A stretch of 64,000 nt of DNA from Brassica napus (lineage: Eukaryota > Streptophyta > Magnoliopsida > Brassicales > Brassicaceae). Under the pieces are notes generated by a model. The model was given only the letters and a program-made list of their open reading frames with translations. It did not search any database and was not told where the DNA came from. The stretch covers positions 13,151,683-13,215,682 of the forward strand of contig NC_063439.1 in NCBI RefSeq assembly GCF_020379485.1. The letters run 5' to 3'. A program made the translations under genes and the position numbers. Below, piece after piece: positions 35,221 to 59,700 of this stretch. How positions within the stretch are numbered: position 1 is the stretch's first letter; every line of letters starts with the position of its first letter.

Positions 35221-36525
35221 TGATACCAATCAAATTACCATAAGGAGTGATTTATACTCTCTCAAATCAGAGGTCGAGTTGTAGTAATTAGGGATTGAAT
35301 TCACAGGGAGTTAGGGAACTTAGGGATTCTAATATGATTTGTTAAGCAAAGATGTTTTAAGAGTTTTAAAAGTAAATTGCAGTTTTATATTGAACAAGTG
35401 TTTGTTCAATAGCAGGTTTTTGGGGTTTTGGTGCTTAAAAAGGAAATAGGTAGACTTAGGGTTTTATTCCGGAAAGCTGGAATTGCAATCCTATAGATGC
35501 CTAATGACTTACATGCATGATAATGTAAAGCTCAACTATTTGATCAACAAGTGTTTCAGCTCTTGCGGGCATTGACTTGTTGTATATTAACTAGATCTAT
35601 GTTCTCAACTCTCGTTATATTGATCTATAGAAAGTATCGATCGATATTCCAATGGGCGTATCGATCGATACACCTTTTGCACCGTCGATCGATTATTCAA
35701 GTATGATATCGATCGATGCGCTCTAGTCAAGCTTTATGCGCAGGTTGAATGAATGCTTACTAAGCTCACTAGATCAGCTCTCGCCTTGCTCATAGCAAGA
35801 AACATAGCTCTATTAGAATGTTTTCAGGATGAGAATTAAGCTATGGCTTCTATCAATCAATCCAAGCGCACATTCTAGGTAGCTAATCTAGACACATGCA
35901 TCAATGAACAATCCTAAGAATGATTATCACAACTCAGCAATCTATAGTTGGGGATAATCCCTCCTAACCTATTTAAACACTAAAATCTAACAAGATAACT
36001 ACTCAGACATGGCTAAGCAATTCATAACAATAGTTAAGTGTAAAAATTTCATAGCATAAATAAAATAGATATCAATGGAGTTCCAATCAAAAATTATAAC
36101 TTTGGATCTTCTCTCCTATCTATCAGTAAAACAATGAAACACAAAGAAAGCACTCTCTGCCTCTAACATGGCGGCAAAGCTTATATAATTAGGGTAAAAT
36201 CTCATCAGGGGCAATCATGTAAAATAGTGAAATCTTGGGCTTCAAGTCGGATGTGACCAAACGGGCTTCATGCGCGCTTTGCTGTCGATCGACATCATGT
36301 CTTGTGTATCGATCGAATCTAGCTCTCCAATATCGACCGATAGTCGATCTCGATTGTCATCTCGGGTGCTTGCTCCAAATATATCCAAATTGCTCCAAAA
36401 TCATCACTTATCTCCAAAACATTTATGATCTTATAAATATAATAAATAGACTCTATAATAATATAATTATTAGTAAAAACACCTATAAACTATGGATGAA
36501 AATGGGTCAAATCCATAGTCTATCA
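35221..36525 (-). repeat. Element B 3' LTR
   Basis: 1,305 bp. Four TCGATCGA palindromes occur at 35637, 35661, 35685 and 35709, and a second cluster at 36285, 36309 and 36333. A TATATAA box is on the minus strand near 36182-36188. Confidence 0.9.
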
Positions 36526-38136
36526 ACTCCCATAGACTTACCTTTTTGCTTATATTCAAGAAAAACAAACATGCAGTCTCTCTGAATGAGGTTTTTAAAA
36601 ACAGCAGGACTCACATGATTTAAAACTTAGAATCATCACCTCTACAATATTGCAATCCACATCTAAGAAGTCCTAATCACAAAAGTACATCATACCATAT
36701 CCTAGCTTAGCAATCAAATTCATCTAGCCAACAACTTAGCATAATCTTGTCTTTCATTCCTCTATACCAACCTCATTTCTTAGCATAAAATAAAAGTGAA
36801 TGCTTTACCTTGGGAGTATAAATCACAGGATTATACGATTTTCAAACAAGTATCTCGACCTGCAAATAAACATTAGTTCATATCCTCTCCCTCTCTACTA
36901 ATTTTCTCTCTTGGTCCAAGTCTGCTTATATGCAAGATCATTAACCAAGATTGGACAGGCTTCCATGAATTAAGCCTTAATGGTGGTTGCCACCAAGTAA
37001 TGTTCACTCCTTTTTGACATATATCCTAGGATTATTTGTGAAGCAAGCCTTAATGGTTGTAGCCACCAAGTCATGTTCTAATCCTTTAATTATGAAATTC
37101 TTATGAAGCAAGCCTTAATGGTTGTAACCACCAAGTCTTGTTCGAACTCCTTCCTAATAAATCTCTAATATAATAATATATATATATATACATATTTTTT
37201 TTTATAAAATCTATTTTTCAAAAATAGAGAGAGAAATAGTGATAAATCTATATACACAAAGCATTACCTTCCAGATTTATTTGAAGAATTTGATCCCATG
37301 TATACCAAGCCCCAAAACAAGCAGTTGTGTCAAGTTTAGTGTTGGAGGTCAGCTTTGGTTTCTTCAAAACAATCTTAGCAAGAGTGGATAGTTGACATGT
37401 TGATCCACTTTAGTATCTTTAGTACTATCTGCAATCAGTAAGTCTAGAATGGTGCTGAAGAGTAGTTAGATATCTAGCAAAATCTATAAGTTCATAATCC
37501 CTTTCTTCACTCAATAATAACTTAGTTTGAAAATATTTTTAATAAGACTAATAAGTAAATAAATATCAGTAAACCTCTCCCAGACTTAAACTACACTGTC
37601 CCCAGTGTAAATTCAGTCGGAATTATGGTTAAAAATAAATCATAAAGACTCAATGTAACAAGTAGGAACGATATACCAGACCGGAACATATGTCGACCGA
37701 TGTAGGGATGTTGAAGTCGGTCGACGCAGGTAAGGCAATGTCGATCGATGTCGACTTGTTCGCATCAGTCGATACAGATGGTAATCATCTACTCGGATCT
37801 TCTTTTTGTTTTTTTATTATGACCTACAATAATTAAAAACCAACATAAATAGTAAATTAATAAAAACTTAATAAATATTATCTAATAGTGGGTTGCCTCC
37901 CACTCAGCGCTTTGTTATAGTCATTTAGCTTGACTTTGGAGGTGTTTTGGCTAGTAGTGTTGTGAACTGGGACTTGTTGGAAAACAAGTATCCATCTCTT
38001 CTTTGCGCTTGTTGAACCATGTACCAGTGAAGTCTCTCATTGCTTCATCCCATCTGCGCCATTTATCCTTCATTGCTGCAGTTGTGTTTTCAATCCTCTG
38101 CAATCTTTCACCAAGACTCTCAAGGGTTAATTGATG
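36526..38136. other. Element B 3' noncoding region
   Basis: It holds the polypurine tract (36526-36540), three copies of a CCTTAATGG...CCACCAAG repeat at 36974, 37047 and 37112, and an AT dinucleotide run at 37169-37195. A patch of GTCGATCGATG-type motifs lies at 37690-37780. The conserved TATAACAAAGCGC/GGGAGGCAACCCA block at 37885-37915 marks the end of the SID ORF family. No other gene. Confidence 0.7.
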
Positions 38137-40235
38137 TCAGGTAAGTGCGGCGTAAGTGTCAGCTGAGATCTCCTTTCCATGGTAAGATGTGTTGGACATG
38201 TCGGATGTCATCTTTCGTACTAGCCGGCCTCGGTTTGTATCGCTGTCGATCGATGTTGAATTGTGGGTGTAGATCGATTTGTTGTCGTGTCTGTCGATCG
38301 ATATCGATGCTTCTGGTCGACGCGAAATGTAACTCTGAATCTCTACCAACTCCCCTTGTATAGCTTCAACCTTGGAGGTCAATGCACTGGATTAAAATCC
38401 ATTGGGAAATAGATGTCATCACATCTCCCATCAAGCATCTCCTCTGTTGTTTCCAGAGCTCTGTAGATCCCTTCTACCAACTGATCTATCTCTTCTCTGG
38501 TGTGGAAATCTGGTTGAGACTTCATCGTGTGTGGGCGTGGCGGATTGGTGTCGATCGATGCGGCCAAGCGGTTGTCAATCGATGCATGATGGCGCTCGTC
38601 GATCGATGGTGATTGTCTGATGTCGATCGATTGGGGTTGTCTTACGTAGATCGATGGAGGTCAAGCAACGTCGGTCGCGTTCTGAATTCTGGTTATGTCT
38701 TGCTTCATCTCCTCCATGCAAGTAGTTAGCCAACTTATACTATCATTCAATGGATAGTAGACACCATCAAGCTTCATCTAGAAGGCTTATTTGTTCCTCT
38801 CATGTTCACCACAGACTCCATAGACATCTCATTGATCTCGTCCTTGGTGTAGATTTCTTGTACCAACTTTCTCTGTGTGAATGAGCTAGCATGTTCAAGG
38901 AGACATATGTAGACTGGTTCATCTCTTGAAACTCTTTCCATAAGTCTTCTGATATCCTTGGTGTGAATAGGAATGGTGTGTCCATCTAAATCTCTGGCAA
39001 ATTCGCGATCATCTCTGTAGACTCCATACTCATCTTTCTCTTCCCAGTAAAATTTCCTGTTACCATAAAGGTCGTAAGCTCTTTTGCCGAATTCTGGCTC
39101 TCTGGTGACCGTTCGGACGTCTATGTTGATCGAGGGATGGGTTGTATGGCAAGATCGTTGTTTGAAACTGTTTTTTATGCCACCAGCTGTGCCATAGAAC
39201 TCCTTTGTAGTCTTCTGTTCGTGGTTGCTGCGTTGATCAATGAACAAATTGTCTGCTCCATTGGCTTTTTGAAGGATATCTGCAATATCTTCTCGAGATA
39301 CGTGTAGTGTGCAGCCGTCTATGGCTTTTGCGAAGCCATTAGGGTCCCTGAAAATACTAAATTCGTCTGGAGTTAGATACTGGTTATCTAATTTATCTTT
39401 TTCGCTTATAGTGGTTTTCGGTATTGGATGGTTGTCGATCGACGTGGTATTGTTGATGTTGATCGATTGTTGAGGAAGCTTTTCGATCGATTGCGGATGA
39501 CGAGTGTCGATCGATTGACTAGAATGTGTTCTTTCCCAAGCAGCTTCTGCTTGAAATTGATCTGTATCATCGCGCTTTTGCATGTTGAGCAGCTCCTCGT
39601 ATGTGAAACTATCTTTTAGTTTACCTGCTCCTGGTGTGTAGGTTACTGTTTCTACTGCAAAGCTCTCGTGGTGGTGTTCATCTACACAATTACCAATCGA
39701 GTAGTCTCCATCTCGCACACGGTTGAAGTCAGTGTCGACCGATTTGTAGTAGGCAGTGTCGGTCGATACTCGCTTTTGGCATCGTTGTTGAGGTTGAGTG
39801 TCGATCGATGGCAAGCTTATCATGTCGAACGATGGTGCGTTTCTTTTCCAAGAGGAATGATGTAAGAGTTTATCTTCGGATGGCTCTGTACTCAATGGCT
39901 CGTTCCTCCTCGAAGTCTTCATCATACTCGTCTGTATGCATATTTTGTCTTGTGTAAGCATCAATAGTGGGGTTGTAGTAGTCATTCTCCCATTCATCTG
40001 GACTACTATCAAACGATTTGTCATGTGGTATGTCGGTCGATTTCTGGTGACCACTGTCGATCGATGTTGATGTGTGAGTCTCGATCGATTCCGAGTTGTC
40101 AGATTCGTACTCGGCTCCACAGTGGCAAGCTGCAATGATTTCTGCATCATTGACTCTTCTGGAGATTGTCTGCAGCTTCTTGACTGGGATAGGGTCATAG
40201 TGGGCATTAGGATCGATGAGTGTTAGAGGCAACTA
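38137..40235 (-). pseudogene. Element B SID-repeat ORF (ORFx) of unknown function
   Basis: A long low-complexity protein region follows the protease. It is rich in S-I-D triplets spaced eight residues apart and has two copies of a ~45-residue module: DEFSIFRDPNGFAKAIDG...DIADIL near 39230-39370 and DEYGVYRDDREFARDLDG...DIRRLM near 38930-39035. The second is followed by a HASSFTQ...EIYTKDEINEM segment. Frames change near 39870 and near 38770-38570. A TAG stop at 40233-40235 separates it from the protease, where element A has a sense codon. I do not recognise a function. It may be a structural or nucleic-acid-binding extension of gag-pro. Confidence 0.7.
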
Positions 40236-40676
40236 GTTGTTTTGCAAGTTGCATACTGCTCCCACTGTTGACAAGAAAGCTATCCCAAGTAGTAGAGAAG
40301 AGTTCCAGTTTAACTTGATGTCCAAGACATGGAAATCAACTGGAACTAGAGCATTACCAATCTGCACCTCTAGGTCTCTCACAATTCCTCCCGAGTTCTT
40401 TTGGGAACAATCCACAAAAGTGAACAATTCCTGCGAAGGCTTCATCTGCAGACCCAGATGGTCTGCCATAACCCTAGGTAGGATGCTGACTGATGCTCCT
40501 GTATCGCACAAGGCATGTGGGAAATCAATACCCTGCACTGTGCATGGTATCGCAAATTGCCCAGGATCACTCTTCTTCTTCAATGTAATCATTTTTCTCA
40601 TCTTTTCTCTAGCTTCACAGAACATTCTCCTAATGTCTTCTTCTTTCTCTCTGGTTTCTCTGAAGAACATCCACAA
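40236..40676 (-). pseudogene. Element B aspartic protease
   Basis: Retropepsin-like domain with an intact LCDTGASVSILP active site and LLLGIAFLS as the second conserved segment. A basic, Glu-rich N-terminal stretch (EDIRRMFCEAREKMRKMITLKKKSDPG) precedes it. It would process gag. The open frame (147 aa) ends in a stop next to the SID ORF. Apart from that stop, this domain looks undamaged. Confidence 0.88.
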
Positions 40677-40761
40677 TCTGTGGCTGTAATAAGCTTCTTT
40701 GAATGGCTTATGTAGAGGAATCCTGAAGACTCTCTTTTGGAAATTTTCCTTTTATTTTTCA

Positions 40762-41826
40762 TTAGCCCCCCTCTTCAGATGTTTCGCCACTTTTTTTCTT
40801 TCTTCTCCTTAGGGTTCCTCCAGTAGTAACCGTATCCTCTTCCATAGGATCATCTCCATCATCTGAAAGTGTTATGACAGGCTCCGGTGGTTGTTCTGAA
40901 GGTTTAGGTTTGGGCATGAGTGTGCTAAGTCGTGCCACATCTATCTTCGGCATCTGCACTCGATAGGTAATAAGGGCTCGTCGATCGATAGGCGGTGATG
41001 GCGGTCGATCGATATTAGCTTCTGAGTGTCCATCGACATTGCTGTTAGCATGTCGATCGATTCGGACTTTGTTAGGGCTGGGCGGATGTGGGTGTTTTGC
41101 TGCAAAGTCCTCATGAGTTAGAATCTTCACTGCATTGCAAGACGCAGTTGACTCCATAGGCGTTTTCAATCGATGCTCTGATACTCCTGTCGATCGATTT
41201 GAGTTGGTGTATGTCGATCGATGTTCGGTGGGTGGTGTCGATCCACACCAATGTGACCCGCCAAAACTCATCAAACGTTCTACCTCGAAGTTGCCTTCTT
41301 GCAGCTTCTCTTCCTTCACCACTTGCCAAAAGTCATCCTTAATAATGGCATTCACGTGGTGCTTCATCACATCATCCCTTACTCCTCTTGTTGAAGCTTC
41401 CTGCCTCCTAATAGCATCTCCTGTCTGCACAACCTGTATCTCCATCTTCTTCAAATGTGTTCAGGTTGGTGTACACATAATCTATCTTCCCATTGAAGTC
41501 CACTGTCATTCGCAGTTGTGCCTCAGGAACCCTATCGAGCATCTCTTCAATCTTGCTCTCTTGAGTAGGCGGCGGTGGCTTCTGGTAGTAGGAACTTCCA
41601 AAATTCATGTTGTTGTTGTAGCTGTTGTAGTAGGGTTTCTGGTACTGCGAATTTTGGTTGAAGTTACTCCTATTTTCATAGGAGTTTTTGTTTCCACCCT
41701 GGTTTCCTTGGAATCCAGCTCCACCAATGTAGTTTACTTCTTCTTCCTTGCTCTACCCTCTACAGTGCGTCATCAACAAAACTAACCTGCTTCTTGAGAA
41801 GCTTGTGAACACTGTCCAGTTTGCCT
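40762..41826 (-). pseudogene. Element B gag-protease linker
   Basis: Coding sequence spread over two frames (41408-41608 and 40762-41454). It carries SID-type repeats (IDRHANSN, VDGHSEAN, IDRPPSPP: eight-residue period), an acidic SDDGDDPMEED stretch and a basic RRRKKKSG end before a stop at 40762. No zinc knuckle is seen. Confidence 0.65.
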
Positions 41827-42432
41827 TCACCTCATCCATCTTATCATTCCTAGGATGGTGGCAGTTTTCTTCCTCTCAAAATCAGTGTTCTTGGTTTTGT
41901 TGCTGGATGCTAGGTTTTCAATCACCTTGACTGCCTCCTCTGGATTCATGGTGTTGAAGTTTCCGTTGCTGGAAGCATCAAGAGCCATCTTGTAAGACTT
42001 GAATCTGATCCAAAAGACCCTGAATGATTCTGCAGCCTCTTGAGTGAATATATAAATCTTGCTCCTCAAGTCTTCAACATGCGCCTCACCAAAGAAATTG
42101 CATAAGTATGCATTCTTGATGTCGCTCCAGGATTTAAGAGATCCTGGTTGTAACTGCTTGAGCCAATGCAGAGCTTCTCCAGCAAGTGAATATCTGAAAA
42201 GCTTGCATAATAGGTAGTCCTCAGAGACTCCATCGACTCTAATAGCAGAAATCAGATCCTCAAACCTCTCCAGATGGTCCATAGGATGCTCGTGGGATAG
42301 TCCATGGTAGGGTAGCTGTCCCACAATTGTGTAGTACTGCACTTTCAACTCAAAATCCCTCTCAATGGTGGGAGGAAGGATGGCTGATTTGTCGGTGTAG
42401 TTGCGATCTGGACGGTTGTAGCCAGATAACAT
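41827..42432 (-). pseudogene. Element B gag (retrotransposon gag domain)
   Basis: Capsid-type domain of Athila-like elements: QYYTIVGQLPYHGLSHEHPMDHLERFEDL, LFRYSLAGEALHWLKQLQPGSLKSW, NFFGEAHVEDLRSKIYIFTQ. It is about 200 residues before the frame breaks at 41827. It aligns with element A gag (44267-45028) and D gag (51341-52924). The open frame begins near 42432; upstream leader frames are broken. Confidence 0.85.
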
Positions 42433-42978
42433 CCTGGGTTGTGCAGCCTCATCTACAGGTAAGGTAGTACATGTAGTAGTAGCATCAGGCTAAGGGATTG
42501 CAGCCCCCTGACCATCTATTCTCTAACCTGCTGCATTATGCAGATGACCCTCCTTGTCATGCATGTCTCCATTGTTGTCCCGAACAAGTATCAAAGTCAC
42601 AACCATGTCTCCCGGTTCAGTATCGATCAATGTCCGAGATGGAATGTCGATCGATGTCGGGTGAAGGGTATCGGTCGACAGAAGGTTTTTGTTGTCGATT
42701 CACAGGGGTGAGCGAGAATCAGTCGACGGAACTGGTGTCTGGGTCGGCGGTGGTTGAGCAGAATCGAGCGACACGAAAGTGTTGTTGTCGGTCGATAGGG
42801 AGTGCGCTTCCTTACGGATCGTGTGTTCCAAACTTGCAGGATCTGGTGAAAATATCAGTTGGGATTCCTTGTTGCTTCTGGTACTGCTGGAAAATCCAAG
42901 AAAAAAAAATTTCTGTCAGAATACTTAACAAAAATTAGAAAATAGGCGATCAAAGCTCCACGGCAACGACGCCAAATT
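42433..42978. other. Element B leader
   Basis: Sequence between primer site and gag, with GTCGATCGATG motifs at about 42610-42680 and variants to 42800. No intact ORF continues into gag. The primer site remnant is at 42962-42976. Confidence 0.55.
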
Positions 42979-44266
42979 TGATACCACTCAAATTACCCTA
43001 AAAAGTGATTTATACTCTCTCAAATAAGAGGTCGAGTTGTAGTACTTAGGAATCGAATTCACATGGTGCTAGGGAACCTAGGGATTCTAATATGATTTGT
43101 TAAGCAAAGATGTTTAAAAGTAAATTGCAGTTTTATATTGAACAAGTGTTTGTTCAATAGCAGGGTTTTGGGATTTTAGTGCTTAAAAAGAAAATAGGTA
43201 GATTTAGGGTTTTATTCAGGAAAGTTGGATTTATAATCCTGTAGATGCCTAATGAGTTGGATGCATGATAATGTAAACTATTTAATCAACAAGTCTTTCG
43301 GCTCTTGCGGGCATTGACTTGTTGTCTATTAACTAGATCTATGATCTAAACTCTTGTTATATTGATCTATAGAAAGTCTCAATCAATATTCCAATGGGCA
43401 CATCAATCGATACACCTTTTGAACCGTCGATCGATTATTCAAGTATAATATTGATCGACGCACTCTAGTCAAGCTTTATGTGCAGGTTTAATGAATGCTT
43501 ACTAAGCTCACTAGATCAGCTCTCGCCTTCCTCATAGAAAGAAACATAGCTCTATTAAAATGTTTCAGGATGAGAATTAAGCTATGGCTTTTATCAATCA
43601 ATCCAAGGACAGGTTTTAGGTAGCTAATCTAGACACATGCATTAATGAACAATCCTAAAGATGATTATCACAACTCAACAATCTATTGTTGGGGCTAATC
43701 CCTCCTAACCTATTTAGACCTTAAAATCAAACAAGAGAACTACTCAGACATGGCTAAGCAATTCATAACAATAGTTAAATATAAAAACTTCATAGAATAA
43801 ATAAAATAGATATCAATGGAGTTCTAATCACAAATTATAACTTTGGATCTTCTCTCCTATCTGTAAGTAAAACAATGAAACACAAAGAAAGCACTCTCTG
43901 CCTCTAACATGCCGGCAAAGCTTATATAATTAGGGTAAAAACTCGTCAGGGGCAATCTTGTAAAATAGTGAAATCTTGGGCTTCAAGTCAGCTGTGACCA
44001 AACGGGTTTCCTGCGCTCTTTGCTGTCGATCGACACCATGTCTTGTGTATTGATCGATTCTAGCTCTCCAATATCGACCGATAGTCGATCTCAATGGTCA
44101 TCTCGGATGCTTGCTCCAAATATCTCCAAAATACTCCAAAATCATCACTTATCTCCAAAACATTCCTGATCTTATAAATATAATAAATAGACTCTATAAT
44201 AATATAATTATTAGTAAAAACATCTATAAACTATGGATGAAAATGGGTCAAATCCTTAGTCTATCA
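42979..44266 (-). repeat. Element B 5' LTR
   Basis: 1,288 bp. The 24-bp grid is kept at 43379, 43403, 43427 and 43451, but three of the four palindromes carry C-to-T or G-to-A changes. A TATATAA box lies on the minus strand near 43922-43928. Confidence 0.9.
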
Positions 44267-45028
44267 CAATGCGATGCCTCTGAAGAAAGTGTTCATCAGC
44301 TGCACTTTGTTGAATCCATGGTGTGTACAATATATCTGATAGGACTTGCATTTCATCAAGGAGCTTCTGAATGATTCCAAAAGCCTCTGTGTGAATGTAG
44401 AAATCTTGCTTCTCAACTCTTCAGCGCATCCCTCATCAAATAAATTACGCAGGAATGTGTTCTTGACTTCAATCCATGATGTAAGAAATTTTGGTGGTAA
44501 CTGCATGAACCAGTGCGGAGTGTCTCCAGCTAGTGAGTACTTGAAGAGCTTGCAAAACAGATAGACCTTAGGGACTCCATTGGCTTTAATGGCAGAAAGC
44601 AAATCCTTAAACCACTCCAGATGGTCCATAAGGTGCTCATGTGGGAGACCACAGTAAGGTGTATGTCCCACAAGTGTAAAGTACTGATGCTTCAGCTCGA
44701 AATCGTTCCTCTGAATAGCTGGAGGACAGATAGCAGATCTGTTGGCACATAATTGATCTGGACGGTCATAGTCAGCTAACGTTTTGGGTAGATCAGCATG
44801 CACATTATCATCACCTACAAGCTGAGCATCAGCTGCAGTTGCATCAGCATCAATATCAGGAGGTACAGCCCTCTGATCATCTAATCTCTGACCTGCTGCA
44901 TTACGCAGATGACCCTCCTTCTCATGTATGTCTCCATTCTCACCTCGCATCAGAACAAGAGTCACAACTGTCTCACGGACGGATGTCGATCGATGTTCGG
45001 GTAGAAGTGTCGATCGGCGGTAGCTCAC
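44267..45028 (-). pseudogene. Element A gag, N-terminal part
   Basis: Gag capsid domain with HQYFTLVGHTPYCGLPHEHLMDHLEWF, LFKYSLAGDTPHWF and NLFDEGCAEELRSKISTFTQ. It is open to the element B junction at 44267 and continues at 35220. The N-terminal part (45028-44900) includes SID-like Ser/Arg repeats and a variable acidic stretch. Confidence 0.82.
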
Positions 45029-45263
45029 AAGTATCGATCGATGGATCTGAGTTGTTGTCGATCGATGCGGCTCGTCTCTCTTTGCGGATCGTTTGTTCCA
45101 AGCGTGTGGGATCTGGGAATACTAGCAATTTTTCCTTGTTGCTTCAGGTACTGTTGGGAATGCACCTGAAAGAAGTCAAGAAACAAATTTATGAGAATTT
45201 TTCAATAATAGTAAAACCTAGACAAAATCAAACTAATAAGATCTAATGTTAATCAAAACTCTC

Positions 45264-45281
45264 TGGCAACATCGCCAAATT
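45264..45281 (-). other. Element A primer-binding site (degenerate)
   Basis: Minus strand AATTTGGCGATGTTGCCA next to the LTR; compare TGGCGCCGTTGCC in element D. It fits an Asp-tRNA complement with mutations. Confidence 0.65.
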
Positions 45282-47529: not shown

Positions 47530-47590
47530 GACTTCTCAAGAATTTGTTCAAACTATGAACACAGTCGAAAATATTATTGTTTATGTTTCT

Positions 47591-47800: not shown

Positions 47801-47925
47801 AATACTAATCAACTCAAGAGGATCCCCTGTGATTCTTTGTAACATCTTATCGTTATGAGTTTTCCATAAATACCAAATAATCCAAGAATAAAGGTTTCTA
47901 TCTAGCTCCCGATTCTTTCACTTTT
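47800..47925 (-). pseudogene. LINE ORF2 scrap
   Basis: Minus-strand frame reads SWIIWYLWKTHNDKMLQ..., resembling the post-RT segment PWIVWYLWKYRNGIIF of the LINE at about 8420-8465. Only about 35 codons remain. Confidence 0.5.
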
Positions 47926-49440
47926 TTAGTTGTGTATTTGGTCTATGCCATCCTCAGTCATGAAGTACCCACTCGCGGACAACCTTGCATATATATATTC
48001 TCTGACCAAGATGAAATATGGTTGATGGGTAAAGCCAGATCTGAACAAGTGAAGAAACCCACTTCGAAAAAATAATATATTAGAAAACTCAAAAATAGTT
48101 ATTCTTGACCTAAACATTTTTAACAAAAAACAAATATTAAAATTTTACTTATGCTTTTGTTGCATGTTTCTTCAAAAAATTTAACCATCATCTTTGTTTT
48201 GTTTGTTTTACTTCCAAATTTCTTGGTGGTACTAATGAAAGACTAAAGTCGTATTCTTTTTCATATATGATGATTGATTAAACTTCTCTTGGTCCTCTGT
48301 TATGTTTTCGGTGCATGTGGTCCAAAGAGTCTTGGAGTCCCCACTCGCGCGTCTTGCTCATGATTTAACCAATATTTTTTTTTTTGAACATTAGATTTAA
48401 CCAATTTTTTTTTTGTGAACATTAGATTTAACCAATATTACATCACTCTACCAGCTTAAAACTCTTTAAAGCTGGCTAGGACTAACCAAACATTATAATT
48501 CTATTACTTTAGAGGTAACCGGGTATTGATTAATTTTTGTCAAAGCATGAAGAGTTTGTTGGGAAAGAGTAAAAGTTGTTCATACACTTGCAAAGATCTT
48601 AATGTAGATTTTTTTTTATCAATATGGAGATATAAATACGCTAAATACAGTATGACTTAGTACACCAAAAGTACAAGGTTTAGGTTCTATGGGCCTAAAT
48701 ATTCAATGTTGGTTATTGTCTAAACGTTACTGTTTTGTAATATCTTCTAGTAGCGTTTTGTATTATCTTTTCCGCTTTCCCTTTATCCTCGTGCAAACTT
48801 TATTTTATCAGCTTCTTTTTAAAAGAAAGTAGTGTTGTTGTTTTTTAAAGAAAGCAAGATCGTGCGTTCTGCTTTTGCGCAGAAAAATATAATAAAGAAA
48901 CTATAAAAGTTTATTTACACTAATTACTGACTAAAATGAAATGAAACGGAAGTAAACGTTACAGAAGAACATCAAAGGTTTCAAGAAGATGATCTAAAAT
49001 TTCGAATATATAAAATATTATGTGGAAAAAAAGGAAATTGCCAATATGGCCTAAATTTGATTTTAAACGTAAAATTATATTCCAAATTGAATCAAATGAA
49101 AAAGTAACTTAAAAGGCTAGTAAATTACAACTAAACTAAACAAAAAATATATATATTTTTTACGAATATAACTCCATGAAGTCTTTTCATGTAGTAAATC
49201 TTCAAAAATAATTTATTAATTTTATAAAAAATATTTTCATGGGAGGGGGTGTGAAATAGAAATCATATAATTATAAAAAAAATTTAATAATTTAAATTTA
49301 GGTTTACTAAAACGGAATTATTTTCGACATAGATGAGTAAATATATGTTGTAAGTCATGAATGTTTTTGGTTTAGGATTTGCGAACATATGTTGTAGTAT
49401 TATTTGTATTTTACGGTTAGATTTTAGAATCATAATCAAG
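47926..49440. other. AT-rich unassigned DNA
   Basis: No domain, RNA gene or repeat is recognised. A local direct repeat TTAGATTTAACCAATxTTT occurs at 48390-48440. Poly(T) and TA runs are common. The right part (49284-49440) abuts the truncated RT of element D. Confidence 0.5.
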
Positions 49441-50212
49441 GCTTTCTTTATTTCTTCAAAAGATTTTACGCATTCTGGTGAGAAGTCGAATTTAACTTCT
49501 TTACAGAGGAGGAAAGTGAGAGGTCTAGCGATTTTGCTAAAATCTTTTATGAATCTCCTGTAAAATCCGGCATGCCCGAGAAAACTTCTCACATCTTTTA
49601 CGTTTTTGGGGGCTGGCAGGCCAGTCATTACCTCAATTTTTGCTCGATCTACCTCTATATCAGCAGCAGATACCTTGTGTCCTAGGACGATTCTATTATT
49701 AACCATAAAGTGGCATTTTCCCAATTCAGAACGAGAATCTTTTCTTCGCATCTTGCCAAAACTTTACATAGGTTATCGAGACAGTTTTTGAAACTGGATC
49801 CATATACTGAGAAATCGTCCATGAAGACTTCCATGAAGTCTTCTATCATATCAGTAAAGATCGACATCATGCATCATTGGAAAGTGGCAGGAGCATTACA
49901 AAGATCGAATGGCATTCTGCGGTATGAGAATGTTCCGTAGGGGCATGTAAAGGTTGTCTTTTCTTGATCGTTAGGAAGTATAGGGATTTAAAAAAATTTG
50001 GAGCATCCGTCAAGAAAACAATAGTATTGATGATTAGCCAATCTTTCCAATATTTGATGAATGAAAGGTAAAGGGAAGTGATCTTTTCTTGTAGCAGCGT
50101 TTAGCTTTCTATAATCGATACACATTCGATGTCCAGTGACGGTTCGGGTGGGAATGAGTTCGTCTTTGTCATTCTTCACCACAGTTATTCCGTCCTTTTT
50201 TTGGTACAACAT
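49440..50212 (-). pseudogene. Element D reverse transcriptase, truncated
   Basis: In order: MCIDYRKLNAATRKDHFPLPF (about 50070-50130), the catalytic VFMDDFSVYG (about 49800-49830) with both aspartates intact, then GHKVSAADIEVDRAKIEV and RSFLGHAGFYRRFIKDFSKIARPL (49500-49690). Frames shift near 49985 and 49740. The sequence stops after FEEIKKALI. Confidence 0.9.
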
Positions 50213-50382
50213 GCACGGGGCTAACCCGATTGCTATCCGACATCCAGAAGTTTGATTATTTCCTCTTTAACCACTTCCTTCAAGTTCGGATTTAGTCACC
50301 TTTGGTGTTCTATTGACAATTTAGAACCATCTTCTAAGTGAATCCGGTGCATGCACAGATCTGGAGAAATGCCAGGAATGTC

Positions 50383-51222
50383 TTAGAGAGAGTACCTGAT
50401 CGCCTTTCTGTACTTGCGTAGTTTATTTAATAACAGTGCAAATTCTCTGTTTGTGAGGTTGGCATTCATGATTACTGGATATGAATCTTTATAGAGAAAG
50501 GCATATTTGAGTCCAGCGGGCAGCTGTTTTAACTCAATCTTCGGTGATTTTTCGGGATCCCATTCCTTCGAGCAGGATGGTTGTCGATCGACAGATTTTA
50601 ATAAGTATCGATCGACGTTGATTTCTGAAACGTCATCCTCTATGTCATCAACGCTTGCTGTTTCCATGCTTGCATCCATTAATCGTGTATATTCTTCAGC
50701 TCTACTATCGACACTGAAAGATTCCTCTTCACCAGTTGTGAATACTTTCTCCAAAGGATTGTCTAAGCATGAGTTTATGAAGGATCCTTCGGCCAATGCA
50801 CTGATGTCGTCCACGTTGGATGTCTGTTTATCGATCAAGGGTCGTCTCATCAGGTTGTCCATGTCGAAAGTCATTGGAATATTTCCAATGTTCAGACATA
50901 TCCTACCCTCCTTGACATCGATTATCGCACCAGCAGTGGCTAGGAATGGTCTACCCAAAATAAGGGGGTCCTTTGGTTCATTTTGGTATTTCAATACTAC
51001 GAAATCCGTTGGGACGTGACAGCCGTTGATCCTTATTGGCACGTCGTCAAGCACTCCCTCAGGTAGTCTAACGGATATATCGGCCAAAATCAAAGTTATT
51101 TTGATAGGTATGAACATGTCGTATCCTAGGGATATAGCGACAGAATGTGGCATGAGGTTCAAGCTGGAACCCAGGTCACAAAGAAATCGAGGAAAATTTT
51201 TGTTCCGTATATTGCAATCCAA
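50383..51222 (-). pseudogene. Element D protease region
   Basis: A 279-aa open frame. [17 protein letters not shown] is the Athila-type active site (DLGSS in place of DTGAS). [21 protein letters not shown] is the second conserved segment. SID-type residues ([14 protein letters not shown]) follow at about 50580-50620. The frame is offset from gag near 51340, so gag-pro is broken. Confidence 0.88.
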
Positions 51223-51340
51223 AACAAAACTGCCCAGACCAGGTCTCTTGATCGGGGACCTTGGATTATTGCACTTACTTCCTCGGAAACCATCATGACG
51301 CTGCTCTCAGTGGCTGGAAAGCTGTTGGATACCATATTCT

Positions 51341-52924
51341 TTACGCATTCTTTATTGAAGGCAATACTTTGAATGCGTCACTCAATGGCATTTCCAACGT
51401 GATCTTATCGAATGCTTTCTTGCAGATTGCTTTATCTAGCTCTCGTTTAGTTTGCGTCTTGTTAGGAGGGAAAGGTGGGAGAGTCCTATACATCCTTTCA
51501 ATTACCGGGTCAGTCGGAGTCGGGAGTCGATCGACATTTTTTTCAGAGGGTCGATCGATACTAACCGTGTTTTGTCGATCAATACTTGTTCTTCCTTGTC
51601 GATCGATTTCGGCATCCTCTTCTATTTCTCCTTCTTCTTCCTCGAGTTCGATGGCCTCTTTCTCAATGTTGGGCTTCTGTCTTTCTCGAGGTATTCCTGA
51701 CTCGGTACTGGAATCATCGAGGTCTATAGGGTGTGACCCACTTTCACCGGTTTCCTCAACCACAACATGTTTCTTTGTGTTGTTGATTTCTATTGCCCTC
51801 GGGATGAGGCGTTTTCCGCTTCTAAATAACACAGCATTGACCTGATGTTTTGGGTTTGCGTCAGTCCGGCCAGGGAGACCTCCTGTCTTTCTTTTGATGG
51901 CGGCGGCGTTTTCCGCGACCTGACTGTCCAGCCTCTTAATTTGTACACTTAAAGTGTCGAACTTCCTCATCAGCTCACTGAAGACTATGTCTATCTTTCC
52001 GTTCAGGTCAGTGGCCAATTTGCGATTTCCCGTGAAAGATTGGTTCAGCCTAGATTTTTCTCTTCCCTGGCGTGATCCAACAATAGCATCGTAATTTTGG
52101 GTAAAACTATAGGGGTTAGGGTAATTATTTTTCAAGGTATGGCTATCTACGAAATCTATTTGCTGTTCTAGTTCAGATAAGGTGGAATCATCAATTTGGT
52201 AGATTCCAAATTGGTTCTGTCCCTCAAGAGCAGGATGGGGCGAGTCTAGATGTTCTTTGATTTTGAGTAAAGGTGACTCATCATCTGGGTCAGCTTTTCT
52301 TCCTAACTCTACGTCCATCATTTCGTAGGATCTACCCGTAGCTATATTATTGATCAAACGCCTCGCCTCCTCAGGGTTTCTGGTATTTACGTTCCCTTCA
52401 CTGGCTGTGTCGAGCGTGATCTGGTAATGAAGGTCAACACCTCTGTAAAAGGTACTAATGAGTTCCGGCTCTGAATAGCCATGGTGGGGGCATTCAAGTT
52501 GGTAGCTCTTGAATATCTCCCATGCATTTCTGAATGATTCTCGTGGGTTTTGACGGAATGTGGAGATTTTCCACCTTGCATCCCAGTAGTGCGCCTCATC
52601 AAAAAATTGATTTATAAAAGCATTCCTTATCTCCTTCCAACAGGTCAGAGATCCTGTTGGTATTTGGTTCAGCCAGTTCCTGGCGTCGCCTTCTAAGGAA
52701 AAAGGAAATAGTTTACAGCGATTGTACTCGTCCTTTATCAATTCTTCTAGATATTCGATGTGATCTTGTGGTCGCTCTGAGACGGTCCCACGGAAAGGGT
52801 TTTGACGTACCATGATTAAGTATTTGGGACTAATCCCAAATCTCTCGGTATCATCTTTTGGTAGTCTAATTGCAGACCTATTGGAATATGTACTTCCAGG
52901 ATTTAAATAGTCTTGCAAAGGCAA
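51341..52924 (-). pseudogene. Element D gag
   Basis: 527-aa open frame. The gag capsid domain lies in the first ~190 residues (YLIMVRQNPFRGTVSERPQDHIEYLEEL, LFPFSLEGDARNWLNQIPTGSL, QFFDEAHYWDARWKISTFRQ). After that come a linker, a predicted helical stretch (LMRKFDTLSVQIKRLDSQVAENAAAIKRK) and an acidic EEEEGEIEED segment. A SID array (IDRQGRTS, IDRQNTVS, IDRPSEKN) follows at 51527-51606. It would form the particle shell. The N-terminal leader (53014-53229) is out of frame. Confidence 0.9.
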
Positions 52925-53013
52925 TTTCCATTTATTATCTCTTTCTGAGATAGATTTAATTTGAACAGTGATTTCAGTCCCCTGTTCACTTGTAATTTGG
53001 TTATTTGCGTTGC

Positions 53014-53229
53014 TTAGTTGACTTTTAGGTTTCCTAGGACTATTCTTTCATTAGCATCATCGGTAAGAGAATACTTACCTGCTTCCGGCGGGGTATTGTC
53101 GATCGATGTTTGATGTTCTTTGTCGATCGACATTTCTGTCGACATGTCGATCGATATTGCTTTCCCTCCGTCAATCGATATGCCTATCTCCTCGTTGATC
53201 GTTGTCCGGCCGAAATCCATGTCTTCCAT
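53014..53229 (-). pseudogene. Element D gag N-terminal leader with SID array
   Basis: 71-aa frame with IDGGKAIS, IDMSTEMS, IDKEHQTS and IDNTP. The DNA palindromes sit at 53099, 53123, 53147, 53171 and 53195 (exact 24-bp steps). It is probably the original gag start, later separated by a frameshift. Confidence 0.65.
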
Positions 53230-53338
53230 CTTGCAGCTCCTGTATCAGCAGGAAAAGAGAGAAAACGTTTTTAGCAAATTTAGTAACAAAATCTAGATTA
53301 AATTCTTAACATAATCTAATGGTAATAAGAAAGAGTCC

Positions 53339-53353
53339 CCGGCAACGGCGCCA
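53339..53353 (-). other. Element D primer-binding site
   Basis: Minus strand TGGCGCCGTTGCCGG next to the LTR: complement of the 3' end of plant Asp-tRNA, typical of Athila elements. Confidence 0.85.
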
Positions 53354-53357
53354 GATT

Positions 53358-54719
53358 TGATATCACTCAAATTACCCTAAGGAGTGAATTACTCTCTCAA
53401 ATAAGAGGTTCAGATGTAGTACTTAGGGATCGAATCCACAGAGACTCTAAGATTACTCAATAGATTATGGTTTTGAACTTATTACTAGATTGAATGGTTT
53501 ATGGGTTTTAAAGCTGTAAATTGGTTGGTGAGCAAGTTTATTACTCGATTGATTGTTTTGAGTTTGTTAACAGTTGGTTGAAGTAGCTAGATTCAGGTAT
53601 ATTCCCAGGTATGATAAATAATACTTAATTTGGGAAATTAGGAATTTGTTAATATTAATTGTTCTTGAATTCAAACTAAGGTATAATCTTTATGATTATC
53701 AAATTTGGATCTCGGACCTCAACTCTCGTTATTTTGGTCGCGAGAAAGTGTCGATCGATAATTCTTTGTGAATATCGATCGATACACCTTTCAAAATATC
53801 GATCGACAGAGCTAACGATGCGTCGATCGATACTTCTTCCAGAGAGCTTTACGAACGGGTTTGATTTGTATTCTCTAACGACTAACGAGACCAACTCTCG
53901 TCTGTATCTAGTTACTTAGATCATCCTAGTTATTTTCAGGTATTGAGTCAAGCAATGGCTTGATCCCAATTTATCCTAGGATCTAAGTTTAAAGGGTGAT
54001 CAATGCTAAACTTAGCTTTAATGCATAACTAGATGGTTGTACTATATTTCTAAACATCCTAATAATTGTTGTGTCAGTATTAAATTATCAACCTATTTGG
54101 GAAACATAAATCTAACAGTTAAGACTACTCAGACATATTCATGGAACACATAGTTATGATGGTCTGAATAATACTTAAATAAATTAAATAACAAAAGTAA
54201 CAAAAATAATGAAAGCAAGGGAGTTCAAGATCTTCTCTGTTTTGAAGTAAATCTATCTCTCCAGTCCTAAGCTTTCCTCTTTCAATGGTGGCTTCTTGCC
54301 TCTTCCAAAATAGGTCTAAAAAGGTCTCCAGGCAAAAAAATGCCTCTAAAACAATACAAACCCCTAATAAATAGCCTAACAGGCGGCCAAGGACTAATGA
54401 TGTAATTATTGAGATTTTTGTGAAACTTGAAATCTTCTAATTTGTCATTAACTCTCGAATGGCTTCATAATCGGTCGATACAAGGGCTTGACTTCGATCG
54501 ATATTTGGTGGTGGCTATCGGTCGATATGGAGCCGCGGCCTTCGTCCATGTCTGGTTTCCAGCGAAGCTCAAAAGATCTCTAAATAACTCCAAATACATC
54601 ATTTTCTTCCATATAGTTCATGAACTTGTAATTACTCTAAATAGACTCTATATAGTAATAATATATCTTAAAATACTCATAAACCATGGTTAAAAATTGG
54701 TAAAATCCATGGTCTATCA
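53358..54719 (-). repeat. Element D 5' LTR
   Basis: 1,362 bp, TGATATCACTC...GGTCTATCA (plus-strand reading). TCGATCGA occurs at 53751, 53775, 53799 and 53823; weaker variants at 54470-54530. Confidence 0.9.
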
Positions 54720-55765
54720 TGTTCACATCATGACATCAATCGACGGCGAAGCGCGCAGAAGCTCGTTTGGTCCAAGCCGACTTAAAGTCCAAGTCTTTAC
54801 CAATTTACAAGATCAGCCCTGACGAGTTTTACCCTAATTATATAAGCTTGCCAACATGTTAGAGGCAAAGTGTGCTTTCTTGTTTTTACTATTTTCACAG
54901 CAAAAGATTTTCTAGGATTTTTAGTAGATTGGAGAGATGATCCAAAGAGATTTGTGATTGGAACTCCATTAATATCTATCTATTTATCTATGCAGTTTTT
55001 ATAAATAATTGTTTTTATGAATTGCTTAGCGATGTCCGAGTAGTTCTCTTTTTAGGTTTAGGGTTTAAATAGGTTATAAGGGATTAGCCCAACTATAGAT
55101 TGCTAAGTTATGATATTCATCAATAGGATTGTCATTAAAGCATGTTTCTAGTTTAGCTAGCTAGAACTTGATCTAGGAGTTTGAGGTAAAGGTCATTACT
55201 TGCATCTCACCCTGAATCCACCCTAATTGAGCTAAGATTGCTAGAGTAAGGCGAGAGCTGATCTAGGAAGCTTAGTGAGAACATTCAACCTGCGCGTTAA
55301 AACTTGGCCAAACGCGTCGATCGATATTCTAATAGAATAAATCGGTCGACGGTTCAACAAGTGTATCGATCGATATTCCTATAGAATCATTGATCGACAC
55401 TTATATCTTGTCAATCGACAAACCAAGAAAGCGAGAGCCTATCGGTTTGTTTATAAGTGTTGAGCTCTATAGTATCATGCATACAACTTGTTAGGCATTG
55501 TAGGATTATAATCATGATTACCTGAATAAAAACCTTAAGTCTAGTTATTTTCTTCTAAGTACCAAAACCCCCAATCAAATCAATCGAGCAACTGCCTTGC
55601 TCAAAAACCTGCTTTTACATTTAATCATAATCAACCTTGCTTAATCAATCTGATTAGGTTTATTAGGTTCCTTAGCTCTCTGTGAATTTGATCACTAAGT
55701 ACGACAACTGAACCTCTTATTTGAGAGAGTAATTAACTCCTTAGGGTAATTTGAGTGAGATCAGT
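54720..55765 (+). repeat. Element C LTR fragment, plus orientation
   Basis: Matches the inner and U5 parts of the B/E LTRs read on their coding strand. It carries AATTATATAAGC (TATA box, about 54837), palindromes at 55317, 55342, 55366, 55390 and 55411, and the LTR end GGTAATTTGAGTGAGATCA. Its U3 start is missing where element D abuts. Confidence 0.85.
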
Positions 55766-57694
55766 ATACCAAGCCCTAAAACAAGCAAGTTAAGTTGATT
55801 AAAATTGGAAGTCAGCTTCAGTTTCTTCAAACTTTCTAAGCTAGAGTGGATGTTATTGGCAGGTGATCCACTTTGGCGTTTCAATTCAGTACACATGCAG
55901 TCAATAACCTCAAAGACTGGTGCTAGATATTGGTTAGATAATAAGTAAATTTGAAAATTTTCATCGTCCCCTTCTTGATTCTATAAAACTCAATAAAAAC
56001 ACAAAACTAATTCACGAAATAAAACACAATATCAGTAACTACCTCCCCTAGACTTGAAAAAATTTTTGTCTCAGTGTTATACAGTCCAAGATTGGTGAGG
56101 AAAATAAATCATAGGTAAACGTTAACAAGCAAAAACTGTATACGTGCCTTCTGGTAGGAGTGTCGATCGACACATTGAAGTGACACCGGCCGGTTGTCGA
56201 TCAATGCTGGTATATCAACTCGTCTTCCTTGAATCATTTTTTAACTAGAATCAAATAAAACCGAAAAATCAGTAAGAAATGAAAATAAAACAAAATTTAA
56301 AACTTACTATTCGGTTGCCTCCCATCAAACGCTTGCTTATAGTCATTAGCTTGACTTCTGAAGATCTGATTTTGTCAGGAAAAGAATGAAAATTTGCTCC
56401 AAAACAAGTCTCAGTGTCTCTCTTCCTCATCTTGTTAATGCAGTTGATAAAATATTTTGCGGAAGCTTCTCATCTGTATCTCAGCTTTGGATTACACTGC
56501 ACCCTGACCTTGGTAAAAGGTTGTAGACCTTCTCTGCAGCGCACCATATACTCAAGACTTTCCTCATGACATCGTGAAGGAACCAGTGTAAAGAAATTTG
56601 CATGTACTTTATTTTTCTTCTTTCTGGCTCTTTCCCCAAACTTAGGCTTTTCAGTCTCGGTTTTTATGAAATTCGGAGGGTGTTGACAGATGCTGATGGC
56701 TGAGGGTTGATCGACGATGATGATGGTTTTACAGTCTCGCAATTTGAATCGGCTGTAGGTGCTGGATATTCAGACAAATATATGCAGGAAATAAACTCCT
56801 CACCTTTGGTCCTCTCTACAGGATCATAGAAGACAGTTTCATCAACATTAGTCATGCACATCTTATTCTTCTTTAGATCACAAATTTTCCCCACTGTAGC
56901 TATGAAGAATCTTCCTTAAAGAAGAGGAGATTCCTGACCTGATTTGATCTTCACGACATGAAAGTCCACAGGGACAGTGCATTCCCCTATCTCTACTTTA
57001 ACATTTTTAATCATGCCGACTGAGTTTACCTTAGAGTTATCCACGAAGGTGAAACTGCCTTGAGAGGCTTCCACATTTAATCATAATGGTTCAGCAGTGT
57101 CTTTGCCCACAATGCTGACCGAAGATCTAGTATTGCAGAGGGCATATGGGAAACCGTGGCCACGTATACAACAAATAATTAGAAATTTTCTAGGCTCTTA
57201 TTCCTTCTTCAGTGTCTTTTTGAGTTTACGATTGACCTTGTTAAAAGCAACTCAATGTCATTATTTGTCTCTTTGCTCTCTTTGAAGAAGTTACCAAGTC
57301 TATATTTATGATAGGCATCCTCGAACGACATATCCTTTGGAACCCTCTTCCCTCTTTAGGGAAATCCATTAAGTTCATCTTTGTTAGCTTCTCTCCTGAG
57401 GTGTTTGGGAACATAGGGCTTCCTAGAGTTCACTCACTTCTATGGAATTCTTTCTTGTGTTGCCTGCTGATCCATGACAGGTTCATGTTCGTCCATATGG
57501 TGTCGATCAACATTGGTGTGTGTCGATCGACACTAGGTGTGTGTCGATCGATACTAGGTGTGTGTCGTTCGACACTCTGAACGAATGAGGTTTTGCCTAG
57601 GGTTGATTTCTCTTGTTCGGCTGCATCTGCAAGTTGCTGAGTGTTGTTCATTGTTGGCTTTGTTGATGTCTGATATGGGTAGAGAGTTGCATTC
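55766..57694 (-). pseudogene. Element C internal remnant: protease and linker
   Basis: Minus-strand body. The 3' noncoding part starts TATACCAAGCCC (compare 37290 and 59760). The protease relic lies at about 56800-57330 (VGKICDLKKNKMCMTN...VFYDPVE is its C-terminal side). The SID linker at 57500-57580 has a 21-bp instead of 24-bp period (VDRHTPS, IDRHTPS). A different Lys-rich segment (ERARKKKNKVHANFFTLVPSR) lies at 56560-56640. Many stops. Next to a plus-oriented LTR it must be rearranged. Confidence 0.65.
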
Positions 57695-58976
57695 TGATCT
57701 CACTTAAATTACCCTAAAGAGTGAATTTACTCTCTCAAATAAGAGGTTCAATTGCAGTACTTAGGTATCGAATGCACAAGGAGCTAGGAAACCTAATAAA
57801 TCTAATGGGATTTGTTAGGTTGGATGTTTTAATGATTAAAATGAAATTTGCAGTTTTTATTGAGCAAGTAATTGCTCGATTGATTGGTTGAGGTTTTGGT
57901 GCTTAAAGAAAAATAGCTAGACTTAGGGCTTTTATTCAGGAAACTTGGAATTATAATCCTACAGATGCCTAATGAGTTGCATGCATGATAATGTATAGCT
58001 CAACTACTAAGCAACATATCAATCAGCTCTCACGTTTCTGGACTTGTTTAACTATATCTAATGACCCAAACAAATGTGTGCGATCAATAGCAAGTGTCGA
58101 TCGATGATCCTATAAGGATATCTATCGATACACCTTTCACTCCGTCAATCGTTTATCTAATACGGATATCGATCGACGCACTTCTAGTTAAGCTTTATGT
58201 GCGGGTTGAATATTGCTCACTAAGATCACTAGATCAGCTCTCACCTTACTCTTAGCAAGAAACTTAGCTCAATTAGAATGGTTTCAGGATGAGAATGAAG
58301 CTATCGCTTTTATCTAACAATCCTAGGGCAAGTTCTAGGTAGCTAATCTAGAATCAGATATTAATGACAATCCTAATGATTATTATCACAAGTCAGCAAT
58401 CTATAGTTGGGGCTAATCCCTCATAACTTATTTAAACGCTAAAATCTAACAATGAAACTACTCAGACATGGCTAAGAAATTCATAACATAAATTAGGTAA
58501 GAAAACTTCATTAGAATAGTAAATATATATTAATGGAGTTTCAATCACAAATATAACTTTGGATCTTTTCTCCAATCTATCATAATCCTAAAAACCTTTG
58601 CTGATAATAATAAAACTAGAAACACAAGAAAGCACACTTTGCCTCTGACATGGTGGCAAAGCTTATATAATTAGGTTAAAACTCGTCAAGGATAATCTTG
58701 TAAATTGGTGAAGACTTGGGCTTCAAGTCGGTTGTGACCAAACGGACTTTCTGCACACTTCGCTGTTGATCGATGTTCTAATGTGAACATCAATCGATAT
58801 TTGTTCCTCAATATCGACCGATGGTCGAGCTCGATGGTCATCTTGGGTGCTTGCTCCAAATATCTCCAAAATTCTCCTGATCTTACAAATATAGTAAATA
58901 TACTCTATAATATAATAATTAATAGTAAAAACACCTATAAACCATGGTGAAAGTGGGTCAAATCCATGGTCTATCA
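57695..58976 (-). repeat. Element E 3' LTR
   Basis: Palindrome grid at 58097, 58121, 58145 and 58169; two of the four are mutated. TATATAA box on the minus strand near 58661-58667. It inserted in element C; the five bases before it are CATTC. Confidence 0.88.
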
Positions 58977-59606: not shown

Positions 59607-59615
59607 AATAATAAA

Positions 59616-59656
<41 letters not shown>

Positions 59657-59700
59657 TTTAAATATATCTATATTTCGAAAATAGAGAGAGAGAGAGAGAG
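59607..59700. repeat. AT and AG microsatellites in element E
   Basis: A (TA)n run at about 59621-59652 and (AG)n at about 59682-59700. The matching place in element B (37169-37235) has shorter runs. Confidence 0.9.

Follow-up and report, generated by a model that had tools for sequence, protein, structure and literature searches.

Sequence-specific self-recognition by plant transposons is, to our knowledge, known only for a few DNA transposons. VANDAL elements are DNA transposons, and En/Spm is a CACTA DNA transposon whose subterminal 12-bp repeats are read by TnpA and are not known to follow a constant grid. VANC, whose target motif arrays evolve through the formation of tandem repeats, induces loss of methylation (PMC5735166); TnpA activates a methylated element with demethylation (PMC10398659). 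In retroelements, the gypsy insulator contains 12 Su(Hw) sites in 340 bp (PMC2374998), and the direct-repeat cassettes termed SIRC occur in transposable elements of Arabidopsis thaliana, including ATHILA (PMC10342631); here and below, these four sources are cited for the accessible parts of their text. Here, we describe a stretch of 64,000 nucleotides of the Brassica napus genome (assembly GCF_020379485.1, contig NC_063439.1, positions 13,151,683 to 13,215,682 of the forward strand; hereafter the window), in which a group of long terminal repeat (LTR) retrotransposons carries arrays of the palindromic motif TCGATCGA at a fixed step of 24 bp. These arrays are probably clusters of dyad sites, usually two to four at 24-bp centres, for a putative dimeric DNA-binding protein, and the sites appear to be kept by elements of the Athila lineage in their LTRs, leader, inter-domain linkers and non-coding internal DNA.

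The window contains 56 exact copies of TCGATCGA, where dinucleotide shuffling predicts 0.67 and none of 100 shuffles reaches 56. All copies fall within 24728-59000, a nest of Athila-related elements, with none in positions 1-24727 and none in 59001-64000. Among exact copies no more than 400 bp apart, the commonest distance is 24 bp (17 pairs), followed by 48 bp (11) and 72 bp (8), and 37 of the 56 such pairs are separated by multiples of 24; across 24.5-59 kb, TCGATCGA at 24 bp is the top 8-mer of fixed spacing, the runner-up being a 35-bp repeat of another palindrome. Distances equal to 17 modulo 24 also appear in excess, apparently owing to a few pairs of neighbouring arrays. The exact grid reported in the original prediction is real and far beyond chance, and all 32 unit starts listed there lie on it; the statement that they had been seen directly was an overstatement for 11 of them, because 21 are exact, seven carry one mismatch and four carry two (43379, 58145, 53195, 25993), and the B 5' LTR array at 43379-43458 has one exact unit of four. 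The grid is also larger than first noted, the listed arrays being present and many others having been missed: at no more than one mismatch per unit, the window holds 27 arrays of at least two units, 15 of them in element B including its LTRs, and five of the 27 are without any exact unit.

Over the whole genome (997 Mb), 22,260 pairs of TCGATCGA lie exactly 24 bp apart, against one for the reversed control, and 40,085 pairs lie at any distance from 12 to 42 bp (control 84), so that, provided each place was counted once, 24 bp alone, one of 31 possible distances, accounts for about 56% of the pairs. At 23 bp there are 1,095 pairs; of the 50 listed, 27 repeat one and the same sequence. No selection for a 24-bp pair entered the genome-wide counts (24, 23 and 12-42 bp) or the window distances. 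The loci beyond the window that were used for array spans, 120-kb distances, centre variants and spacer identity were selected for holding such a pair, and their 24-bp peak arises partly by choice: in 120 kb of array-bearing sequence (the window plus nine loci or parts of loci), the exact pairs up to 130 bp apart include 57 at 24 bp, 28 at 48 bp and 18 at 72 bp, the minor distances being 23 bp (four), 47 bp (five) and 71 bp (four), with 14 scattered others. In a background sample of the same chromosome (twenty 10-kb stretches, 0.5-12.85 Mb), one exact TCGATCGA was found in 200 kb (L026:6215), and this copy sits in a stretch alignable to the element nest of the window; copies with one mismatch are off the grid there (18 and 28 in two stretches, none at 24 bp). 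Neither of the two refutation checks that had been proposed for the grid refuted it: the spacing in other family members peaks at 24 bp, genome-wide and in related loci, and the motif stands far above the background, being concentrated, within the sequence examined, in this group of elements. Among the first 50 listed pairs at 12-42 bp, 13 are not at 24 bp (six at 32 bp, four at 23, two at 21 and one at 42). The six 32-bp pairs, on a chromosome arm (G000:C1 3.8-9.0 Mb), form a TCGATCGATCC...GGATCGATCGA inverted repeat, unlike the Athila arrays, which perhaps represents the ends of a small transposon.

In a set of 66 arrays, which leaves out L005, L006 and the overlapping part of L002, 25 arrays span two slots, 16 three, 21 four, three five and one seven. 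The span falls off after four slots (62 of 66 arrays have at most four), and, given the decay of units, four sites may be the usual original size. Arrays of this set were assigned to the longest open reading frame (ORF) of at least 100 amino acids on either strand, and some of these ORFs are antisense or due to chance (e.g., at 36285 and 42623).

The region from 24.7 to 59 kb is a nest of LTR retrotransposons and fragments, in whose ORFs gag and aspartic protease domains are found, elements B-D carrying gag and/or protease (Pfam). Element D aligns (72% over 2.2 kb) to a related locus of the same genome, L027, in which RVT_1, RT_RNaseH and rve are followed by ATHILA ORF-1 (PF03078, 2.4e-25). 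The Athila order of gag, protease, reverse transcriptase, RNase H and integrase, with ATHILA ORF-1 downstream, was thus found, and, because L027 has the last three domains and then ATHILA ORF-1, domain content places the array-bearing group in the Athila lineage of Ty3/gypsy; the placement excludes the A-type LTRs. The A-type LTRs and their surroundings contain a second palindrome, CGGTCGCTACGTAGCGACCG, in tandem arrays with periods of 35 and 71 bp (Table 1). Another locus, L029, joins an LTR of the CGGTCGCTACGTAGCGACCG type to internal TCGATCGA arrays, and therefore a single element can have one motif in its LTR and another internally; another gypsy gag, in L029 (1-3052), contains no array.

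Within the element ORFs, to which the strict assignment of frames is limited (a broader set includes antisense ORFs), the motif is read in all three frames, as S-I-D, I-D-R and x-R-S, with two frames inside orfX of element B and two inside the next B ORF. The S-I-D-x reading initially proposed for the coding arrays does occur, but is only one of the three. OrfX has 591 relatives, and in the best 120, whose sources include B. cretica, B. rapa/campestris, B. napus and B. oleracea, an eight-residue periodicity is present in all three frames; five of these proteins have all three. In scanned ORFs with a Pfam match, six of six arrays lie outside the match, the one in L027, for instance, separating RNase H from integrase; these positions were worked out by hand, the protease matches of D and L028 are below the Pfam cut-off, and the scans left out the ORFs of L001, L030 and L031. 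The arrays are thus not a protein feature.

A second comparison concerns the non-coding LTRs. The alignment takes in six LTR sequences, some of them partial (B 3', B 5', E, D, the plus-strand partial F and L027), and two arrays lie at similar alignment columns (195-243 and 915-988) in all six, F being without most of the first. In a held-out Fisher test, in which the two sequences being compared took no part in defining the motif columns, the eight pairs of divergent LTRs (B, E or F with D or L27) are 81-95% identical in the motif columns, against 39-46% in the 16 bp on either side and 46-56% in the remainder (p from 3.6e-4 to 6.5e-9, the pairs not being independent). Identity for B3-L27 is 0.95 in the motif, 0.39 in the flanks and 0.52 in the rest, and for D-L27 0.94, 0.63 and 0.67, respectively (p 1.8e-5). 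The two LTRs of B, which were identical at insertion, show no contrast (motif 0.91, elsewhere 0.93), and 18 of 36 CpG positions have changed between them. Because the footprint is found between LTRs and not within one insertion, the comparison shows purifying selection on the nucleotide motif in the replicating lineage; the motif persists through element replication and decays after insertion, which fits a function used by active elements. The claim that a protein-only explanation is insufficient is borne out, since arrays lie in three frames within ORFs and are conserved in non-coding LTRs.

The consensus of 77 oriented units, YRTCGRYCGAYR, is a near-symmetric dyad, and the spacer columns carry 0.01-0.25 bits each; the units of the B 5' LTR, duplicates of those in the 3' LTR, are excluded from this set and from a set of 172 grid units, which additionally excludes L031 and L001-L004. 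The 38 LTR units yield a motif that is almost symmetric between the strands. On the sense strand of the 172 units, the centre variants TCGGTCGA and TCGACCGA, which are mutual reverse complements, occur 11 and 9 times, and the flank pair -1/+8 does not covary (A-T 42, A-C 90, G-T 8, G-C 17; odds ratio 0.99, p 0.61), unpaired A-C accounting for 90 of 172. Because the centre variants are equal on both strands, covariation within a site is absent and the dyad is nearly symmetric, these data favour duplex DNA over RNA pairing. Equal variants and no covariation are the trace that would be expected from a dimer reading two independent half-sites in duplex DNA. Among the functions suggested in the original prediction, binding sites for a dimeric factor provide the best fit to the dyad, the symmetry of the LTR units and the lack of covariation, and the DNA- or RNA-level role suggested there is supported, more strongly for DNA than for RNA.

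In other species, the motif was followed through proteins. The array of four eight-residue units in the gag-protease linker of D recurs in Brassica relatives, and three linker units are recognisable at the same place in Raphanus. In gag-type proteins, an [IV]DR pair eight residues apart is present in Cardamine (two of two), Arabis (one of one) and Microthlaspi (one of three), and in none of one in Capsella. In Arabidopsis (A. suecica and A. arenosa), pairs lie seven residues apart in five of seven proteins (VDRHHxG, VARHHQG) and 14 residues apart in a further one, and the A. thaliana protein has none; A. suecica is in part arenosa, so these proteins are not independent. The seven-residue distance suggests a step of 21 bp in Arabidopsis. 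In 24 relatives from Asteraceae and Apium, no such pair was found within 32 residues in any frame.

To account for these data, we propose that a dimeric, probably self-contacting DNA-binding protein, either element-encoded or from the host, would occupy two to four neighbouring sites, with the 24-bp step set by contacts between neighbouring dimers, and that occupancy along the element would let the family be recognised as a unit. Same-face helical phasing as the cause of the step was rejected: 24 bp is about 2.3 turns, not a whole number, and Arabidopsis apparently uses 21 bp, so a strict same-face model fails. A fixed step without helical phasing, together with lineage-specific steps, fits a protein-protein geometry, and the dispersal of the sites fits a system that marks the whole element. 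As for the outcome, we infer activation, anti-silencing or insulation, most likely activation of transcription or resistance to silencing, as for VANC on VANDAL elements; this activating or anti-silencing role, drawn by analogy, is tentative. Somewhat more doubtful is the wider proposal of a self-address, in which spaced dyad operators running through regulatory and coding DNA would be read by a co-evolving, perhaps element-encoded, protein, the geometry of its multimers fixing the step at 24 bp in Brassica and its relatives and at 21 bp in Arabidopsis, with element-wide activation or resistance to silencing as the result. If true, a retrotransposon would have overlaid a fixed-step operator array on its own genes, and selection on DNA would override protein sequence in all frames; the array would also offer a defined bait with which to isolate the reader from a crop genus in which these elements are abundant.

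Several observations weigh against a dimer bound on a regular grid. The helical arithmetic of the 24-bp step and the apparent 21-bp step of Arabidopsis relatives are among them, as is the fact that 17,825 of the 40,085 pairs at 12-42 bp (44%) have a spacing other than 24, mostly unclassified. Closer LTR pairs show a weak footprint, with p above 0.05 in four of five (B3-F 0.006, B3-E 0.052, B5-F 0.060, B5-E 0.43, E-F 0.30). Even in the 38 LTR units, A at -1 is somewhat commoner than its counterpart at the mirror position (30:7 vs 20:14, p 0.07), and the 49 internal units of the window show an excess of C over T at +8 that spacer composition does not account for (41:5 vs 200:110, p 6e-4), the preference for A over G at -1 being explained by composition (p 0.14). 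Internal units thus carry some orientation, and a strand-blind dimer does not predict the +8 bias. Pfam finds no DNA-binding domain besides integrase domains in the scanned element ORFs; at a loose threshold, orfX and five relatives give only matches to retroviral or gag protease, the rest being at chance level. AlphaFold models are of low confidence and yield no candidate reader: B orfX has a predicted local distance difference test score (pLDDT) of 48 and a predicted template-modelling score of 0.26, and ATHILA ORF-1 from relatives has a pLDDT of 43, too poor for comparison with structure libraries.

Other explanations were weighed against the dimer-site reading on the same evidence. An RNA-level signal, in which UCGAUCGA repeated in sense RNA would be bound by Gag or pair with itself for packaging or genome dimerisation, is in keeping with sites spread along the element, including gag and leader, with a self-complementary core and with the sense-strand bias of internal units at +8. 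Self-pairing, however, would tolerate TCGGTCGA (G-U) and reject TCGACCGA (A-C mismatch), and therefore their near-equal counts speak against it, as do the absence of covariation (assessed for the flank pair only, the centre doubles being too few), the near symmetry of LTR units and the fact that a protein recognising single-stranded RNA has no need of a dyad; no unit has the compensated centre TCGGCCGA beside it, an uninformative result with fewer than one expected by estimate. We regard this signal as unlikely, and the packaging or RNA-pairing function first suggested is disfavoured, even if a protein reading sense RNA is still compatible with the data and the +8 bias leaves an RNA role open. 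Slightly less credence is given to host-side marking: the dyad would then serve a host factor (a repressor, an insulator or a heterochromatin protein), or the step would be linked to 24-nt small interfering RNAs, the latter a weak candidate carried over from the original prediction. The motif seems, from protein evidence, to be common to several Brassicaceae genera, which suits a conserved host reader, and the Drosophila gypsy insulator is a precedent for the host protein Su(Hw) (PMC2374998); on the other hand, it is difficult to see why a replicating lineage would retain a repressor site without benefit to the element, the spacing seems to differ between Arabidopsis and Brassica, and the CpG changes between the B LTRs suggest methylation and decay of old copies.

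Passive growth of a minisatellite, in which 24-bp slippage made the arrays without selection, is very improbable. Recent duplications of 24 or 48 bp are indeed seen in some arrays (4 of 87 within-array spacer pairs are at least 9/12 identical), and spacers are barely more alike within an array than between arrays (4.0/12 vs 3.2/12), so the arrays seem to have grown by unit duplication, after which nearly everything except the dyad seems to drift. The whole unit, spacer included, is not similar between copies as in a minisatellite; the core is kept while the spacers carry almost no information, held-out LTR columns stand out as conserved when families are compared, but not when the two LTRs of a single insertion are, and arrays seldom exceed four slots. 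Least credible of all is a protein-level repeat, in which an eight-residue S-I-D-x spacer peptide in Gag or linkers would be selected, the LTR copies being accidental. Most coding arrays in the 120 best relatives of orfX are in the S-I-D frame (365 pairs at eight amino acids, against 22 and 37 in the other frames, with a query itself mostly in the S-I-D frame), and the other two frames show a mild synonymous excess (12 of 24 deviations against 31% expected, in a small set that includes antisense ORFs). This explanation is contradicted by the non-coding LTR footprint and by the use of three frames, two of them within one ORF; moreover, the S-I-D frame itself has no synonymous excess (2 of 19 deviations against 21% expected), and the residues between motifs vary widely. 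The 'SID' repeats of many predicted Brassica proteins are, this suggests, a by-product of a nucleotide signal.

Compared with known systems, VANC offers, by analogy, the nearest working precedent. In VANDAL elements a short motif is dense in one group of transposable elements, with many copies per element, and arrays grow by repeat duplication and change in a lineage-specific manner (PMC5735166, PMC10398659); dense element-specific arrays are likewise found here within the sequence sampled. VANC motifs lie mainly in non-coding DNA and, in the accessible text, are not called palindromic (PMC5735166), whereas the present motif is a palindrome in both coding and non-coding DNA, in an LTR retrotransposon and on a fixed 24-bp step. 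No VANC-like domain is among the Pfam matches of the scanned ORFs, no dedicated VANC profile having been run. The gypsy insulator is the retroelement precedent, with clustered sites of about 12 bp with degenerate Y/R ends, in one 5' untranslated cluster with AT-rich surroundings and a host zinc-finger reader (PMC2374998). Unlike that single 5' untranslated array, the present arrays also occupy LTRs, linkers, orfX and other internal DNA, and spread through coding DNA in three frames. En/Spm is similar in its element-borne repeated sites and in an element protein that activates a methylated element, and differs in being a CACTA DNA transposon with subterminal repeats and no known constant grid. 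SIRC cassettes share short direct repeats with unrelated spacers in ATHILA, and their authors also favour a DNA or RNA role over a protein role, from amino-acid composition; in the accessible main text, no TCGA-containing repeat is printed, 21 bp is not mentioned, and there is no test of a 24-bp grid, reading frames or a footprint (PMC10342631). In the literature searched (mostly titles and starts of abstracts, with subscription papers largely outside the search), we found no description of the grid and no paper that pairs TCGATCGA with a retrotransposon, and 11-12-base extensions of the motif gave no transposon paper.

Table 1. Arrays and array-bearing features (window positions unless a locus is named).
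Feature	Positions	Strand	Remarks
Degenerate array, element A	25969-26072	+	2 exact units in 5 slots
CGGTCGCTACGTAGCGACCG arrays	26397-27827, 30999-31305, 31708-33209; L029 3064-4241 and 7149-8000		
Element B 3' LTR	35221-36525	-	arrays 35637-35716 (4 exact), 36285-36340 (3 units, 2 exact)
Three arrays, B 3' LTR to orfX	37693-37748, 38246-38301, 38551-38654	-	outside ORFs of at least 100 amino acids
B orfX (ORF 38774-40222), S-I-D frame	39435-39514, 39735-39766 (0 exact), 39801-39832	-	
B orfX (ORF 38774-40222), x-R-S frame	40033-40088	-	
B ORF 40762-41460, two 4-unit arrays	40981-41060 (I-D-R), 41166-41245 (H-R-S)	-	different frames
Arrays upstream of B gag ORF	42623-42678, 42764-42795 (0 exact)	-	
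Element B 5' LTR	42979-44266	-	the two 3'-LTR arrays, partly decayed: 43379-43458, 44026-44081
Element C gag ORF, N-terminal part	44986-45065	-	4 units, H-R-S frame, outside gag domain
Element D, after protease domain	50584-50615	-	2 exact units, V-D-R frame
Element D, gag-protease linker	51527-51606	-	4 units, I-D-R frame
Leader upstream of D gag	53099-53178	-	4 units, outside ORFs of at least 100 amino acids
Element D 5' LTR, aligned part	53708-54719	-	arrays 53751-53830 (4 exact), 54471-54525 (1 exact)
Partial LTR of plus-strand relative F	54719-55763	+	sites in 55317-55397
21-bp tandem array of the same core (GTGTCGATCGACACTAG)	57500-57576		
Element E LTR	57695-58976	-	arrays 58097-58176 (2 exact), 58766-58821 (0 exact)

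The two B LTRs listed in Table 1 are direct repeats with 91% identity (self-BLAST), and the array at 54471-54525 in the D LTR has steps of 24 and 23. Over 70% of its length, orfX of B matches a Brassica campestris (rapa) protein with 99% identity; it contains two related modules, each some 45 residues long and strongly conserved, [FY]G[IV][FY]RD..G.A...DG.TI, which are present in many Brassica relatives and belong to no Pfam family. A 65-bp tandem repeat (ATGAAGCAAGCCTTAATGGTTGTAGCC...) lies at 36965-37152 and 59393-59589, near the LTRs of both B and E. In the rest of the window, where no exact motif occurs, there are putative copia-like ORFs, putative ORFs of the long interspersed nuclear element type and an integrase ORF with a Tf2-1-like SH3 domain. 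At 10073-17058, a 3.5-kb segment forms a head-to-tail direct repeat of 99.1% identity, and AT-rich tandem repeats lie at 335-1173, where periods of about 20, 39 and 130 bp are nested in one another.

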